A stretch of DNA of 64,000 nt, from assembly GCA_904378045.1 (NCBI GenBank), contig CAJFHC010000009.1, forward strand, positions 1 through 64,000, read 5' to 3'. The translations under genes and the position numbers were made by a program. Source of the stretch: Candidatus Metalachnospira gallinarum. Lineage in GTDB: Bacteria > Bacillota > Clostridia > Lachnospirales > Anaerotignaceae. The notes beneath the pieces are model-generated. The model was not told where the DNA came from. It saw nothing but the letters and a program-made list of their open reading frames with translations, and made no database searches. This document shows, in pieces, positions 26,491 through 33,559 of this stretch. The first letter of the stretch is position 1, and every line of letters starts with the position of its first letter.

Positions 26491-26781
26491 TTACGAATTC
26501 ATCATATTCTTTAATAAAGAAATTAGCTTCGCCTGCGCGGATTCGGGCGTTTTCTCCGGTTCGTTTTGACACGTTAAGTAGCATAGAGCGTCATTCCATT
26601 CCCAAAGAGAGCATGCGTTCGCAGGAATTTCTTCAATTTCTTTGATTAATCGTCTGATCTCAAGTTTATTCAGAAAACGCAGATTGGAAATATATGTACA
26701 ATCCATACGATGTGCCAAATAATCTAATAAAGGCAAATGCAATGATGTTTGACATGTTTCAGATGGTATGCGTGTTTCCAT
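26491..26781 (-). CDS. Hypothetical protein, 96 residues
   Basis: A small, mildly acidic cytoplasmic protein with three cysteines and an alternating helical pattern (LNKLEIRRLIKEIEEIP). AAAGGGGTG lies seven bases before the ATG, supporting translation. It lies downstream of the giant surface-protein gene, after its terminator, in the same direction. No family is recognised. Confidence 0.55.
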   Translation of the reverse strand: METRIPSETCQTSLHLPLLDYLAHRMDCTYISNLRFLNKLEIRRLIKEIEEIPANACSLWEWNDALCYLTCQNEPEKTPESAQAKLISLLKNMMNS

Positions 26782-26839
26782 CTAAAGCACCCCTTTCATA
26801 AACATTTTCAAAGAGTTATGCGTACATATTTTTTTAAGC

Positions 26840-26865
26840 AAAAAGGGAGAAAAATCTCCCTTTTT
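26840..26865 (-). terminator. Terminator of the giant surface-protein gene
   Basis: An 11-bp perfect stem (26840-26850 with 26855-26865) and a 4-nt loop, ending in T-rich arms on the minus strand. It lies 10 bp after the surface-protein stop codon. Confidence 0.85.
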
Positions 26866-26875
26866 GTTATGATGG

Positions 26876-29800
26876 TTATTTCATTAGGCTTGTCCAAATT
26901 TCCGCGTCATCCATTTCATAATAATGCCCGTTGCAAGCCTCCATAATATCGTAATATGCCCAGTTGCTTTCGTCTACATCTGTAAAATTCTTGATATCGT
27001 CTTTATTAAAGCTGATATAAGATGTATCTGCTTTTCTTTCAAGCATACGGTTCACTACGCTGACAACTTCCGCGCGTGTGATATATCTGTCTGGTTTAAT
27101 AGTACCGTCCGGATAACCGCTGATCCAGCCGCGGTTATATGCCATTTCTACAAAATTCTTTGCCCAATGGCTGTCGGGAAGGTCACTGAAATAAACGTCT
27201 CCTGTTTCTTTCAGATTATCAAAATTTGCCGCGATTGTCGCAAATTCCGCTCTTGTAATAGGGGCGTTAGGACGGAAAGTGGAGTCAGGATAGCCGTTTA
27301 TGATACCGAGACTTTCAATATATCCAATGCGGTCGGAATACCACTCATTTTCATTCACATCAATGAAAGAAGACGAATCATAGCTGTCAAAATCCTCATC
27401 AAGCAGTCTGGAGAACATTACAGCCACTTCCGCCCTTGTAATGTACTGGTTGGGCTTGAATGTACCGTCCATATAGCCGGAAATATATGCGAAATGATCT
27501 TCTTTATTCAGCGAAGGAACGTCATCATATACGGTCTGATCGGAAGAAGGCTCGTGTTCTTTTGAATCGTCCTTATCGTCATCCCTATCCGATTCCTCCT
27601 CGTCTAAAGAGAAACTTCCGCCGCCGCTGCGTTTTGTTACGGTCAGCTTATAAGACGCTTCCGCTTCCGTGAAATTGTCCGAACCTTCCGCTGTAGCGGT
27701 AATTACCGCGGTGCCTCTGCCTACAATGGTTACTTCTCCGGTAACTGCGTTTACCTTCGCCACATCCTCATTATCGCTTTCGTATGTGATTTTGCCAAAT
27801 ACTTTTATCTTTGTCAGAGGATTTGTGAAGTCAGAGGAGTTTGTCTTTTTGGACACTCGTGTTTCTTTATATTCGATATCCTGATTTGCTTTCAGAATAT
27901 TTACCGTAACTCCGTCCATATCGGCAAATGTATAATACGCGCTATCATTGCCGATTAAAGCGTTGTCCGCGATGCGGACAGGTCTGTTGTTTCCGGCGTC
28001 CGGTGTGGATAAAATTCCTTTTGTAATTTCGCCGAGACTTACATCATCTCCGCTGATTACGCCTGTAAAAGTTCCCGTTCCTTCCAGCGCGACAATGTTT
28101 GTTCCGTCATATTCGCGATCCTTTGCCGTAACGTCGCCTGTAAATGTCAAAGGTTTTTTGTTTATCGTCACTTTCAAAGTGCTATATTCACTGTCGTTTA
28201 AGTGCAGATCTTCACTGCCTCCGTAAACTACTTTAATTTCGCTGGTGCCGGCAGGAAGTATTTTTTCGGTAGTGTCATAATTTATTGCTGCCGTGCCGCG
28301 GCTGCGGTATACAGGATATCCCGGCCTGACTTCTTCATAACTTACAGGGCTTGTACCAAGAAGAGTATCTCCGTAATAAAATGCCGCTGTATTGGGCTGA
28401 ACGCTGGTTCTGCTGAGCGTGGATGTTTCCGCAAGTTCGATATTTGCTGTAAGTGCGATTGTATCACCATAGGTGCATGTAATATCTTCCGCGGCTACCT
28501 GAGTATCCGCTTTTGTGATAGTAACCGTGACATTCTCAAACCCAATATCATATTTATCACTGTCAGTTCCGCTTAAGTCTATCATCGGATACACAAGAAT
28601 ATCCTCGCCAAAAGGCGCATAAACCATACCCCAGTATCCCTCGCCTAAGTAGGCTTCTATGCCTTCTGCGGCAATAATGCTTACGTCATCGCCGGGCAAA
28701 ACGCCGGTTAACTGCAAATTGGAGATAGGCACTGTCATGGATTTATAGGATGCTTTAGAGTATTCAGTTTCATAATCAGGATCGGTTGGTTCTGCCGTTA
28801 TCAGGTCATATATATTGATATATTCTCTGTCCTCGGCGGTAAAGCTTACGATTACATCTCTTCGCGCAATGCGGAAAGATTTACCGCTGGAATATCTGCT
28901 CGCGTTAAATATGTCATTTTCCTGATATTTCGCAAAGAAATAGAGTGAGCCAATTTCCGATGTGTCCGCCGTGTATTCAAATACGGCGGTTACCGTGCCG
29001 TCATCGTTAAATACTGTTTTAGCCGTGCCAAGATATTTGTAATCACCAGCGGATGGAGAGGAGTTTGCGGCATAATAGAAATCTACTTTGCCTTTTGAAT
29101 TTTCCTCCGTCATGGTAAGTCCGCTTCCGGATACCGTGGCGGTAACGAAAATGGTTTTCTCTGTGTCGCCGTACTGCAATTCATCTTTAGAAAGAGAAAC
29201 CGTTACAGTAGGCGGAATTTTTTTGATCGTTACGGTCAATGTTCCTAACTCAGGCAGTTTATACCAGTCTTTATCCTCGCCTGTCAGCGTGCAGGAAAGG
29301 GTTACCTCTATGTCTTCTCCCGGAAGAGCTGTTGCAGCTGTTCCCTTGTTTGCGTTGAGCAAGCTTACATCATCTCTGACGCTGTCGTCTTCCTCTATGC
29401 CGTCTGTGATGCGAAGACTTCTGATGGTTACGTCTGTTGTGCCGTTATAGTTTCTGTCTACAGCGTAAGCGTTTGTAGAAAGTGTAAGCTGTTTTTGGGA
29501 CAGGGTTACAGGAATTTCAACCTCAGATCCATTCAGTGAGGAACTGCCGCCGAATACTGCCGTTACGGTGCTTTCGCCGACAGGGATTCCTTTGGATACG
29601 GTTGGATATTTCAGCGTCGCCGTGCCTCTGCCCGTTGTGCTGACGCCGTATTTAACATCGGCTGTTCCCAAAAGCTCATCTTTTTCGTTATAAAAACTTA
29701 CGGTATCTTCTTTGACTGAAAATGTGCTTATTTCAGGAGAGGATTTCTGAATGCTTACACTCAGCGTAAGCGTATCGCCGTAGGTTCCCTGAACCGCCTG

Positions 29801-31906
29801 CGTAACTATATCTGAATCACTCGTGCTTATGGTAAAAGTTATTTTTGCCGTTGCTTCGCCGATGGTAATTTCAGCCGTGTATGTGCCGCCTTCCACAGGC
29901 GTTACGATTTGATTATCCTTGTCGCGGTGGATAACACGGACATCTCCGCCATGCCAGCCTTTGGATTTTTCTGTCGTGGCTGTTTTCTCGGTTCCGTCAT
30001 ATACTGCGGAAGCGGGAGGAATAAGCGTTATTGTTTCATAGTGCTCTTCATCAGCGGTATCCTTTTCGATAATAACGCCGGGGTTATTATCGTCAATTTC
30101 GTAGTATAATGTGGATTCTACGCCGTTGGTCCATTTCGCGTAATAGGTATTTCCATTGCTGAAAGAAGAAGCCTTCGTATTAAAATCAGCGTCTTCATAC
30201 CAGCCGTCAAATTCCCAGCCTGCTTTTGAAGGCTCTATCGGTTTGGATTCTAATGCATCGGGTTTTTCGATTAAGCCTCCGTTGGTTATAAAAACAGCTG
30301 ACCTCTCTTTGATGTTATTATTCAGAGCGTCCGCGAATGACTGGTCTTTTACATATACAAAATCATGTGGCGAATGTACAGAGATATTCATATCTTGAGC
30401 ATAGTTAACAGGTATAGTGTTCAGCCTTGTCAAATTCAAATGAAGCGAACTGCTTTGCGGCAAAGAAACAGCGTAAATACCTAATTTTTCCACGGTACTC
30501 GGCAATTCATAATATTTCGGATGGTTTTCTGTTGTTTCAGAAGCAATAAAACTCAAAGCAGATTGATCCATGAAAGTGACAGAACTTGGTTCGTCGAATG
30601 TTACTTCACATACATCGCTCGATAAAAAAGCCATATGAGAAAGTTCTTTTAATCCTGTGCCGATACGTACTTTGATAGGATTATATATACCACAAAAACA
30701 TTCATATTCTATCTTTATAACAGTATCTGGTATATATAGTTCTTCTAAGTGAGAATTGGCAAATGTTCTTTGACCGATTTCTTTAAGATTATCATTATCC
30801 AAGTCGATCTTTTTCAATGAAGAATTACTGAAAGCACAAGTTCCGATTCGTTCTACAGTGTCGGGAAGAGTGTATTCTGTAGCTCCTGTTGTGAACTTTA
30901 CCGGAGCTTTTACAAGAATGGAGCCGTCCTTTGTAAATAAAATTTCGTCCTCTACTTTATAATATTGGTTTTCTTCAGGAATCGTAATTGATTCAAGGCA
31001 ATTATAAGATTGGGCACTAGAGTAGAAAGCTAAATCGCTGATTTCCTCAACCGTGGAAGGAAGAACAAGCTCCTTGGCGGCCGTTTCGCTTAACGCGTAA
31101 TTGCCGATATATGTAATGCCTTCTTCCACAACGATCTTTGTAATTTCATTCCTCTTGGAATACCATCCTTTGGAGTTTTGGTGATTAGGATAATCCTGTA
31201 TTTCTCCCTCGCCGGAGAAAGTAAGAATATATCCGCCGTTTCCGTCATCAACCAGAGTATATTTTACAGAGGAAGCCTTGGCGTTGTTTGCCTGCGGGGT
31301 TATGCTTTCCTGCTCAGAAATATTTGCAGGAACATTTGCTGAGTTGTTTTCAAATGTATCATCATCTTCAAGAACGCAGTCGCCTTCATGACCATCCTCT
31401 AATATACAGCCTTCCGTAACGGAGCAGGGAATCGTGGATTCCGTCTCATCCTGTTCCTCGCCGTTGTCATCTTCATCGGTCAGGCCGCCGTTTGTCTCAT
31501 CATCGCCTTCAAGAACACAGTCGCCTTCATGGCCATCCTCTAAGATACAGCCTTCCGTAACGGCGCAAGGAATTGTAAGCTCCGTTTCATTCGGTTCCTC
31601 GCCATTATCATCATCCGTTGGCAAGCCGCCGCATGTTTCGTCATGCACATGATCGCATGAATGAGCTTCTACAGCCGTGGCGTAAGAGCATTGAGCGGTA
31701 TGATCCACAATGTTATCGCCGTCCGTATCCGTGCAGTTCTGGTCACAGGGGATTTCATCCTGTTCTTCCCTATATCCGCAGCTTTCATCATGTATGTGGC
31801 TGCACTTTGATTCCTGCGTTTCTTCCGCGAATGCCATTGCCGGCGCTGCGCCAAGTGTCATGGCAAAGGTCAAAAGCAGGCATAGAATACGCTTTTTCTT
31901 TTTCAA
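26876..31906 (-). CDS. Giant S-layer-homology surface protein with LRR, MBG/Ig-like and Cys-rich repeats
   Basis: A secreted protein of 1676 residues. A signal peptide (about 1-28) is followed by a cysteine-rich acidic region (about 33-185) with a 47-residue tandem duplication around GCILEDGHEGDC. Next come BspA-type leucine-rich repeats (about 215-540) and a Listeria-Bacteroides type repeat (GWEFDGWYEDADF). A long array of MBG/YDG and Ig-like modules (about 600-1400) then leads to a Big_2-like domain (SDNEDVAKVNAVTGEVTIVG). A charged linker precedes three SLH domains (about 1475-1640, each with GYPDGT-like and ITRAE motifs) that bind secondary wall polymers. It is therefore a wall-anchored adhesin or matrix protein. 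The start is TTG 31906, nine bases after AGGAG. The leader contains one inverted repeat of the invertible segment, so expression is probably phase variable. Confidence 0.92.
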   Translation of the reverse strand: MKKKKRILCLLLTFAMTLGAAPAMAFAEETQESKCSHIHDESCGYREEQDEIPCDQNCTDTDGDNIVDHTAQCSYATAVEAHSCDHVHDETCGGLPTDDDNGEEPNETELTIPCAVTEGCILEDGHEGDCVLEGDDETNGGLTDEDDNGEEQDETESTIPCSVTEGCILEDGHEGDCVLEDDDTFENNSANVPANISEQESITPQANNAKASSVKYTLVDDGNGGYILTFSGEGEIQDYPNHQNSKGWYSKRNEITKIVVEEGITYIGNYALSETAAKELVLPSTVEEISDLAFYSSAQSYNCLESITIPEENQYYKVEDEILFTKDGSILVKAPVKFTTGATEYTLPDTVERIGTCAFSNSSLKKIDLDNDNLKEIGQRTFANSHLEELYIPDTVIKIEYECFCGIYNPIKVRIGTGLKELSHMAFLSSDVCEVTFDEPSSVTFMDQSALSFIASETTENHPKYYELPSTVEKLGIYAVSLPQSSSLHLNLTRLNTIPVNYAQDMNISVHSPHDFVYVKDQSFADALNNNIKERSAVFITNGGLIEKPDALESKPIEPSKAGWEFDGWYEDADFNTKASSFSNGNTYYAKWTNGVESTLYYEIDDNNPGVIIEKDTADEEHYETITLIPPASAVYDGTEKTATTEKSKGWHGGDVRVIHRDKDNQIVTPVEGGTYTAEITIGEATAKITFTISTSDSDIVTQAVQGTYGDTLTLSVSIQKSSPEISTFSVKEDTVSFYNEKDELLGTADVKYGVSTTGRGTATLKYPTVSKGIPVGESTVTAVFGGSSSLNGSEVEIPVTLSQKQLTLSTNAYAVDRNYNGTTDVTIRSLRITDGIEEDDSVRDDVSLLNANKGTAATALPGEDIEVTLSCTLTGEDKDWYKLPELGTLTVTIKKIPPTVTVSLSKDELQYGDTEKTIFVTATVSGSGLTMTEENSKGKVDFYYAANSSPSAGDYKYLGTAKTVFNDDGTVTAVFEYTADTSEIGSLYFFAKYQENDIFNASRYSSGKSFRIARRDVIVSFTAEDREYINIYDLITAEPTDPDYETEYSKASYKSMTVPISNLQLTGVLPGDDVSIIAAEGIEAYLGEGYWGMVYAPFGEDILVYPMIDLSGTDSDKYDIGFENVTVTITKADTQVAAEDITCTYGDTIALTANIELAETSTLSRTSVQPNTAAFYYGDTLLGTSPVSYEEVRPGYPVYRSRGTAAINYDTTEKILPAGTSEIKVVYGGSEDLHLNDSEYSTLKVTINKKPLTFTGDVTAKDREYDGTNIVALEGTGTFTGVISGDDVSLGEITKGILSTPDAGNNRPVRIADNALIGNDSAYYTFADMDGVTVNILKANQDIEYKETRVSKKTNSSDFTNPLTKIKVFGKITYESDNEDVAKVNAVTGEVTIVGRGTAVITATAEGSDNFTEAEASYKLTVTKRSGGGSFSLDEEESDRDDDKDDSKEHEPSSDQTVYDDVPSLNKEDHFAYISGYMDGTFKPNQYITRAEVAVMFSRLLDEDFDSYDSSSFIDVNENEWYSDRIGYIESLGIINGYPDSTFRPNAPITRAEFATIAANFDNLKETGDVYFSDLPDSHWAKNFVEMAYNRGWISGYPDGTIKPDRYITRAEVVSVVNRMLERKADTSYISFNKDDIKNFTDVDESNWAYYDIMEACNGHYYEMDDAEIWTSLMK

Positions 31907-32019
31907 GACATATCACTCCTTATAGTATTTATTGAAAAAAGAAATCATATTGTTTTATGCCTTTGCGCTGATAAATGCTTTGCCCTGTATGCTCGCGATG
32001 GGTAATTTTTTATTAAATC

Positions 32020-32044
32020 TTATATATTAAGTTTATATATTAAG
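32020..32044. repeat. 12-bp direct repeats in the surface-protein leader
   Basis: TTATATATTAAG occurs at 32020-32031 and 32033-32044, a 13-bp period, between the left inverted repeat and the surface-protein start. It could be a regulator site or promoter-like AT-rich DNA; no function is shown. Confidence 0.4.
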
Positions 32045-32084
32045 CGGTTTAGATATTTTTTCAGCTCCTTTCTAAAGAGAACTA

Positions 32085-32387
32085 AACAGAATTCTGATTC
32101 TGTTGTAATTATATAATGACAAATATGTGCGCTTTTTGAGAGTACGCCCTTTGAACTCCAAAAATAAGTCTCATTCTTAACGTAAATCGCTTGAATAGCT
32201 TTATATTTCAGACCGAAAAAACAAAAAACTGATTCGGTCTATTTAATATGCCATAATAATTCTTTTATTGACCTTGTTTTTTTGAGCTTATGCTTATATA
32301 ATATTAATATGTATTGTTCTGTGCTGTGAATAAGCTGATAATGTAATGTTGTACCGTATTTATTTACAACAGAATCAGAATTCTGTT
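32085..32387. repeat. Invertible DNA segment with 24-bp perfect inverted repeats
   Basis: The 24 bases at 32085-32108 are the exact reverse complement of 32364-32387, enclosing 255 bp with no gene. Each repeat contains a 20-bp dyad: AACAGAAT, four asymmetric bases, ATTCTGTT. This is the layout of a tyrosine-recombinase core site. The right repeat reaches into the stop codon of the adjacent recombinase. Because the repeats are identical, inversion would leave that gene intact. The left repeat is 178 bp before the surface-protein start. The segment holds promoter-like sequences and a hairpin (32210-32217 with 32233-32240). Phase switching of the surface gene is inferred from this arrangement. 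Confidence 0.85.
32268..32302 (+). promoter_or_regulatory. Candidate mobile promoter inside the invertible segment
   Basis: A perfect TATAAT lies at 32297-32302 with TTGTTT 17 bp upstream (32274-32279); TTGACC at 32268 lies 23 bp upstream. It points right, towards the recombinase 3' end and away from the surface gene. After inversion it would sit about 60 bp from the left repeat and face the surface gene. A weaker leftward candidate (TTCACA 32330-32325, 18 bp, TAATAT 32306-32301) is also present, so the state shown cannot be fixed from sequence alone. Confidence 0.4.
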
Positions 32388-33234
32388 ATAATATCAGCCG
32401 CATTTTTTCCAGTTTTTTTCTGTGGCTTTCGCCCGTTTCCATAATATAAATACGAGTTGTTTCTATGCTGGCATGACCTAATAAATCCGCCAGCTTTGCT
32501 ATATCCTTTTCTACGCTGTAAAATACGCGCGCAAAAAGATGACGCAGATTGTGCGGAAATACTTTTCCCGCTTCCACTCCGGCGTCATGGCATAGCTCTT
32601 TCATTTCACGCCAAACATTGCATCTGTTAAGGACATTCCCTTTTCGGGAAAGAAAGACGGGGCCGCTTAAGATGCCCTGCTTTTTAATGTAATTTTTCAA
32701 AAGCTGCTGGAGCTTCTTAGGAAGAAAAATAACTCGCTGTTTTCCTTTGCAATCCACGTTGGCATACCCCGATTTAACTGCTTCCACTGTGATAAACTGC
32801 AGTTCTGATATGCGTATTCCGGTAGCGCAAATAGTTTGAAGGACTAAAGAAAGCCGTAATTTTCCTTTTTTCTGTGCGGTTTGAACCAGTCTGAGATATT
32901 CTTCTTTTGACAAATCCTTTTCTTTTTCCATAAAAATGCGTTTTTGACGTTTTAATGTCTTTACACAGCAATCGAATCTCCCCATAAAACGGAATAAACC
33001 GTTTGCCGCTATGATTTTGCCGTTGATGGTAGATACCGAGTAGTCTTTTTTAATCAAGTTCTGTTTCCATAGGCATACGCCGTTTTTTTCAATTTTTGCA
33101 CCAATACCAAGAAATTGATAAAGATCCCAAATATCTTTTTTATATTTCGCGATTGTACTTTGTCTGCATTCCTGTTCGTGAAGATAAGAAATATAATCGC
33201 CCAACATTTCCAATGAGATAAACTGGTTATCCAT
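32386..33234 (-). CDS. Tyrosine recombinase, likely invertase of the adjacent switch
   Basis: A protein of 282 residues of the XerC/D-like phage-integrase family. The N-terminal SAM-like core-binding domain (about 5-90) is followed by the catalytic domain (about 105-282). Catalytic residues visible are the first Arg in CATGIRISEL, HNLRHLFA (HxxR), LLGHASIETTRIY (His/Trp position and nucleophilic Tyr in TRIYI). GAGGAGGA lies seven bases before the ATG. The protein is small, has no excisionase or phage partners, and ends exactly at the right inverted repeat of the 255-bp segment. Dedicated tyrosine recombinases next to invertible promoters are known from Clostridium and Bacteroides, so this is the probable switch enzyme. 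A remnant of an integrated element is the alternative. Confidence 0.9.
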   Translation of the reverse strand: MDNQFISLEMLGDYISYLHEQECRQSTIAKYKKDIWDLYQFLGIGAKIEKNGVCLWKQNLIKKDYSVSTINGKIIAANGLFRFMGRFDCCVKTLKRQKRIFMEKEKDLSKEEYLRLVQTAQKKGKLRLSLVLQTICATGIRISELQFITVEAVKSGYANVDCKGKQRVIFLPKKLQQLLKNYIKKQGILSGPVFLSRKGNVLNRCNVWREMKELCHDAGVEAGKVFPHNLRHLFARVFYSVEKDIAKLADLLGHASIETTRIYIMETGESHRKKLEKMRLIL

Positions 33235-33559
33235 GTAAAAATCCTCCTCAATATTAATAAATCAATTTTAACTTTTTTTGCGGAGATTTATTCCGGAATT
33301 TTAAATCACTTTGAGGATACTTTGGGTGAAAGCATAAAGAATAGTTAGAGTAATTGACAACACTTACGCCGGTTAAAATATTCATAGAGCGCTATAGCTA
33401 TAAAATGGAACGGATGTTTGCATAAGTTTTCTGTTCCCCTATACTTTATTTTTTTTATATGTTATACTTTTTATTGATTCAAGCGCATCAGAAAACATTT
33501 GTCCGGTCAGGCGGAAATTCCGCAGGATGGATCCGGGCTTTGATAAACGGAGGTGTATC
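33235..33559. other. Intergenic region between the recombinase and uvrB
   Basis: These 325 bp are AT-rich and hold no credible gene. TTGACA at 33354-33359 with TAAAAT at 33374 has too short a spacer (14 bp), and TATACT-like boxes occur near 33440-33470. The uvrB promoter probably lies here but cannot be fixed. Confidence 0.4.

Follow-up and report, generated by a model that had tools for sequence, protein, structure and literature searches.

In the genome of Candidatus Metalachnospira gallinarum, a gene for a giant surface protein is separated from a tyrosine recombinase gene by a short stretch of DNA bounded by inverted repeats, which raises the question of whether this segment inverts and thereby switches the surface gene on and off. 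We analyzed a 64,000-nucleotide stretch of contig CAJFHC010000009.1 (the window) from the 2.05-Mb assembly, which comprises 73 contigs. An earlier note had read the locus as an invertible promoter. Toward lower coordinates, the recombinase gene is followed by a repeat, 255 bp, the second repeat, 178 bp, and the gene for the SLH protein (Table 1). The anatomy described in the note was borne out: the positions and perfect identity of the two 24-bp repeats, the lack of a gene in the 255 bp between them, the 8-bp dyad arms around an asymmetric 4-bp spacer (core AACAGAAT-TCTG-ATTCTGTT), the contact of one repeat with the recombinase stop codon, and the 178-bp distance from the other repeat to the 1676-residue SLH protein. 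The ORF of this protein begins with TTG behind an AAGGAG ribosome-binding site. Since the recombinase ORF ends within its repeat, overlapping it by two bases of TAA, inversion would spare the recombinase gene.

Table 1. Features of the candidate switch locus and its surroundings (window coordinates)
Feature	Position	Strand	Remarks
96-aa ORF after the SLH gene	26491..26781	-	No Pfam match; in the block common with Anaerotignum lactatifermentans
Block common with A. lactatifermentans DSM 14214	26501..33357		86-92% DNA identity; IS-interrupted there
1676-aa secreted surface protein, proposed target gene	26876..31906	-	BspA-type LRR, Ig-like, YDG and three C-terminal SLH domains
Inverted repeat, SLH-gene side	32085..32108	+	Core 32085-32104; spacer TCTG 32093-32096
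Candidate invertible segment, 303 bp including repeats	32085..32387		Anatomy; homologous segments known in both orientations
Hairpin AGACCGAA...TTCGGTCT, proposed insulator	32210..32240		Behind the promoter
Predicted sigma-70 promoter TTGTTT-17-TATAAT	32274..32302	+	Toward recombinase 3' end, away from SLH gene (OFF)
Inverted repeat, recombinase side	32364..32387	-	Core 32368-32387; two bases shared with recombinase stop codon
Xer-like tyrosine recombinase, 282 aa, proposed invertase of the switch	32386..33234	-	Pfam, catalytic residues

The repeat pair stretches to 31 nt at 94% identity. Searching the whole assembly for the core with up to 2 mismatches returned the two repeat sites and two weak, chance-level matches, with no exact copy elsewhere, and the sole exact match among viral contigs was an A. 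lactatifermentans contig already known. A 12-bp direct repeat, TTATATATTAAG, occurs twice at 32020-32044, between the switch and the ribosome-binding site of the SLH gene.

The recombinase contains a Phage_integrase domain (Pfam PF00589, E 8e-27) and the catalytic R, H-x-x-R, H and Y of tyrosine recombinases; R141, H228, R231, H254 and Y263 are invariant in a 22-sequence alignment, and K163/K165 are also present. Its scores fell below the NCBIfam equivalog cut-offs for XerC, XerD and XerA (best XerA 136.5 of 220, XerD 122.9 of 329.6) and below the FimB/FimE subfamily cut-offs (PRK09870 29.3 of 221, PRK09871 25.6 of 222). It has no close relative within the same genome, the next best match being 27-32% identical. 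Pfam models matched three SLH domains, LRR_5 and YDG in the surface protein, and the SLH and LRR domains suggest that it may be an adhesin. Early in the SLH gene (31358-31639) lie two tandem 141-nt repeats that are 81% alike; they encode 47-aa repeats in frame and could allow the protein to vary in length. Beyond the gene, the 96-aa ORF is 84% identical in amino acids to its A. lactatifermentans counterpart and also occurs near two other switch loci, L051 and L189.

Whether the arrangement recurs was examined in about 100 homologous recombinases, mostly 39-93% identical, taken with their downstream DNA from the family, order and class and treated by one fixed procedure; a close homologue of the window recombinase was present in 63 of 391 sampled genomes. 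At or near the recombinase's own stop codon, 85 of 95 testable cases have a repeat pair of 17/18 identity or better, usually enclosing 200-300 bp, versus 5 of 303 control ORFs from the same loci (mostly the same repeats seen from another ORF), which excludes chance. Recombinases lacking a qualifying repeat include one beside an N gap (L042), some at contig ends (L117) and more distant family members. The 8-4-8 dyad fits all but one of the 85 loci, CACATAAT-NNNN-ATTATGTG being the commonest type. The exception, L158, consisted of Ns and was left out, leaving 84.

The spacers follow a rule of their own. They are identical between both copies in 84/84 loci, with 50 different spacers among loci, and mismatches between copies are confined to core positions 1-7 and 19-20, though loci had been picked by repeat identity, which lowers the expected mismatches anywhere in the core. 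Palindromic spacers number 0/84, against about 4 expected. Matched, non-palindromic spacers are what strand exchange with a fixed direction between matched crossover regions requires. Recombinase distance tracked arm distance (Mantel r 0.42) much more closely than spacer distance (r 0.14); the correlation with the arms can also reflect joint descent. The idea that differing spacers insulate the cassettes of one genome from each other was not supported, as some genomes (G492, G693) repeat a spacer.

In L052 (G011, contig C7) the inverted repeat is 86 bp long, carries a sequence resembling a tRNA 3' end (GGGTTCAAGTCCC) and has two core sites per arm. Recombinases of the same family whose 3' end is marked by a repeat pair also occur in Monoglobus pectinilyticus (L194) and on a megaplasmid of Pusillibacter faecalis typed as conjugative (L195), where a 1500-aa SLH protein follows.

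The first ORF after the switch points away from it in 75/80 loci, so that a promoter in the segment could drive that ORF after inversion. Downstream genes in the window's own family mostly encode giant secreted proteins, and those tested bear SLH domains; regulators, membrane proteins and other functions occur in other loci. At L043, L045, L046, L047, L050, L052 and L058, a second tyrosine recombinase, about 30% identical, comes first after the switch and before the giant surface gene. Expression of a recombinase in this position would be confined to the ON state, a possible source of feedback. In L044 the second recombinase follows the surface gene, and none was seen at the window's locus.

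In 56/84 loci, the best sigma-70-like promoter within the segment scores above the 95% level set by dinucleotide shuffles, and the distance from its -10 element to the exit end is 45-90 bp in 75/84 loci versus 41/252 shuffles. With promoter position fixed, promoter direction predicts 53 loci to be OFF (toward the recombinase) and 17 ON (toward the downstream gene), with 14 undecided; within the window's own family, the 14 decided loci, the window among them, are OFF without exception. The -10 element of the window promoter ends 85 bp from the segment end, as in a 67%-identity homologue (L044). Its score of 12.5 is within the range of shuffled sequences (median 11.9, 90% 12.9), and the OFF call for the window therefore rests largely on conserved position and on homologues. 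By these signs, the window copy looks switched off as read. A strong-looking promoter, TTTACA-18-TATAAT, spans the recombinase-side repeat but is probably due to chance, because its -10 element lies in the last codons of the recombinase, and these codons differ in most homologues.

Direct comparison of segments points to inversion. Two paralogous cassettes on one contig (L121 and L122; contig C34, genome G326) align at 80% identity over 173 bp on the minus strand only, while the order of recombinase and downstream genes is unchanged from one cassette to the other. Further homologous segments are mutually inverted between L171 and both L173 and L166, between L168 and L174, and between L201 and L217. 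As in described invertons, then, repeats enclose a promoter, of modest score in the window, next to a gene that it could drive, and both orientations occur among homologous loci. The comparison of related genomes that the earlier note had called for thus found both orientations among homologous loci, but the only close orthologue of the window locus, in A. lactatifermentans, has the window's orientation. The note's central proposal, promoter inversion, is supported by the internal promoter found at a fixed position in both directions, the inverted homologous segments, the spacer identity and the repeats at recombinase 3' ends. We conclude that the locus is very probably an invertible promoter acting as a phase-variation switch, and we infer that the window copy itself flips and controls the SLH gene.

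It is also conceivable, if unlikely, that the family inverts while the window copy is a fossil that no longer does, leaving the SLH gene silent or dependent on a weak promoter between repeat and gene. Such a locked site would fit the uniform OFF state of decided loci in the window's family and the insertion sequence (IS) inside the segment of the closest orthologue. Against it stand an uninterrupted recombinase ORF that retains its catalytic residues, a 24-bp repeat pair without a mismatch, and 93% identity between this recombinase and its orthologue in a different genus.

That orthologue belongs to A. lactatifermentans DSM 14214, the nearest named relative in the genome collections searched. 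DNA identity across the common block drops to 74% in the neighbouring uvrB, and the SLH protein is 85% identical to its counterpart. UvrB proteins are 82% identical between the window genome and A. lactatifermentans, compared with 88-90% within the genus, and three same-genus genomes searched had neither an SLH counterpart nor a recombinase homologue of comparable identity. The simplest reading of these identities suggests that the whole unit (26501-33357) was transferred horizontally. In A. lactatifermentans the IS lies mid-segment, where the assembly breaks (L041 / L292), and both halves have the window's OFF orientation; by visual reading of the sequence, the IS has what appears to be an 8-bp target duplication (GTTTCAGG). 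On a further contig of that organism (C137, L042), the surface gene and a second recombinase are reversed relative to the first recombinase. This was discarded as evidence because the join crosses a run of N and is a scaffolding join.

A second alternative, which we consider very unlikely, places the driving promoter outside the segment, for instance as read-through from the recombinase gene, with the segment forming a terminator in one orientation only. The cwpV gene of Clostridium difficile operates in this way (PMC2784873), and most segments do contain a hairpin, located upstream of the promoter in 70/77 homologous segments. In the window, the hairpin has a folding energy of -12 kcal/mol (z -3.4) on the recombinase-sense strand. 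A scan in both directions around the locus found no intrinsic terminator. Moreover, with its near symmetry and its place between recombinase and target in either orientation, the hairpin would be a poor discriminator of the two states, and the fixed-position internal promoter is far above chance. Attachment or regulatory inverted repeats are also found near recombinase genes, but it is scarcely credible that the repeats here have nothing to do with inversion and instead serve as an ordinary operator, mark the end of transcription or delimit an integrating element, given that relatives carry the segment in opposite orientations, that spacers agree within loci and not between them, and that only promoter-sized, gene-free DNA separates the repeats.

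In the promoter-inversion mechanism that we propose, the adjacent recombinase would bind the 8-bp arms of both repeats, and strand exchange within the central spacer region would flip the 303-bp segment. In the OFF state, transcription from the promoter would head into the 3' end of the recombinase gene and leave the SLH gene behind; the hairpin, which in the window lacks a clear U-tract, may help to stop recombinase transcripts from entering the SLH gene. In the ON state, the inverted promoter would face the SLH gene and yield transcripts with a leader of about 250 nt, and the hairpin would still sit between recombinase and promoter. Convergent transcription in the OFF state may lower recombinase expression and so favour OFF, which would explain the excess of OFF loci.

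The nearest known model is fimE-fimS-fimA of Escherichia coli, which also combines a tyrosine recombinase gene, a promoter-bearing invertible segment of about 300 bp (314 bp in fim, PMC8777976) and a gene for a surface structure; the window locus shares the adjacent recombinase and internal promoter that mark fimS-type switches. It differs from fim in having one recombinase rather than two, 24-bp repeats with an 8-4-8 core rather than 9-bp repeats (TTGGGGCCA), and an unrelated Gram-positive surface protein, and its recombinase is of an unrelated subgroup with weak similarity to FimB/FimE-type models. The earlier note had taken C. difficile as a model of promoter flipping. This did not hold for its best-known surface switch: cwpV resembles the window locus in being a clostridial gene for a giant cell-wall protein preceded by inverted repeats and in its XerC/D-type tyrosine recombinase, but its 195-bp segment has no promoter and works by a terminator mechanism, the promoter lies outside the inverted DNA and the recombinase, RecV, is unlinked (PMC2784873), which makes fim the nearer model.

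Sequencing reads from a defined gut community (hCom2) have already revealed inverton group 139, whose 33 invertons, 32 of them clostridial, are associated with a single tyrosine recombinase group (invertase group 35); flipping was visible in reads of both Clostridium sp. D5 and Intestinimonas butyriciproducens (PMC11892184). Like the window locus, group 139 belongs to the class Clostridia and has a tyrosine recombinase within 5 kb, with segments of about 250 bp in the two published examples; going by this description, it is probably of the same kind as the window's family. Our literature search on the repeat core, or on SLH proteins with tyrosine recombinases and phase variation, found nothing relevant. 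The kind of switch is thus already known; added here are the site rules, the promoter position, the orientation counts and the apparent transfer as a unit.

Judged by its sequence, the window locus is a member of a widespread clostridial switch family in which, throughout the class Clostridia, a single site grammar goes with a single recombinase clade, so that switches and their targets become predictable from assembled genomes without reads. More tentatively, and with rather less than even confidence, we suggest that recombinase, switch and target may form a transferable, self-contained ON/OFF module of many Clostridia, with an 8-4-8 core, a freely drifting matched spacer, a promoter at a set distance, an insulating hairpin, an OFF bias from transcription into the recombinase and, in some relatives, second-recombinase feedback on the ON state. 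The prediction for such gut-type bacteria is that, in sequenced cultures, giant surface proteins would for the most part be silent and, like CwpV, be made by a minority of the cells.
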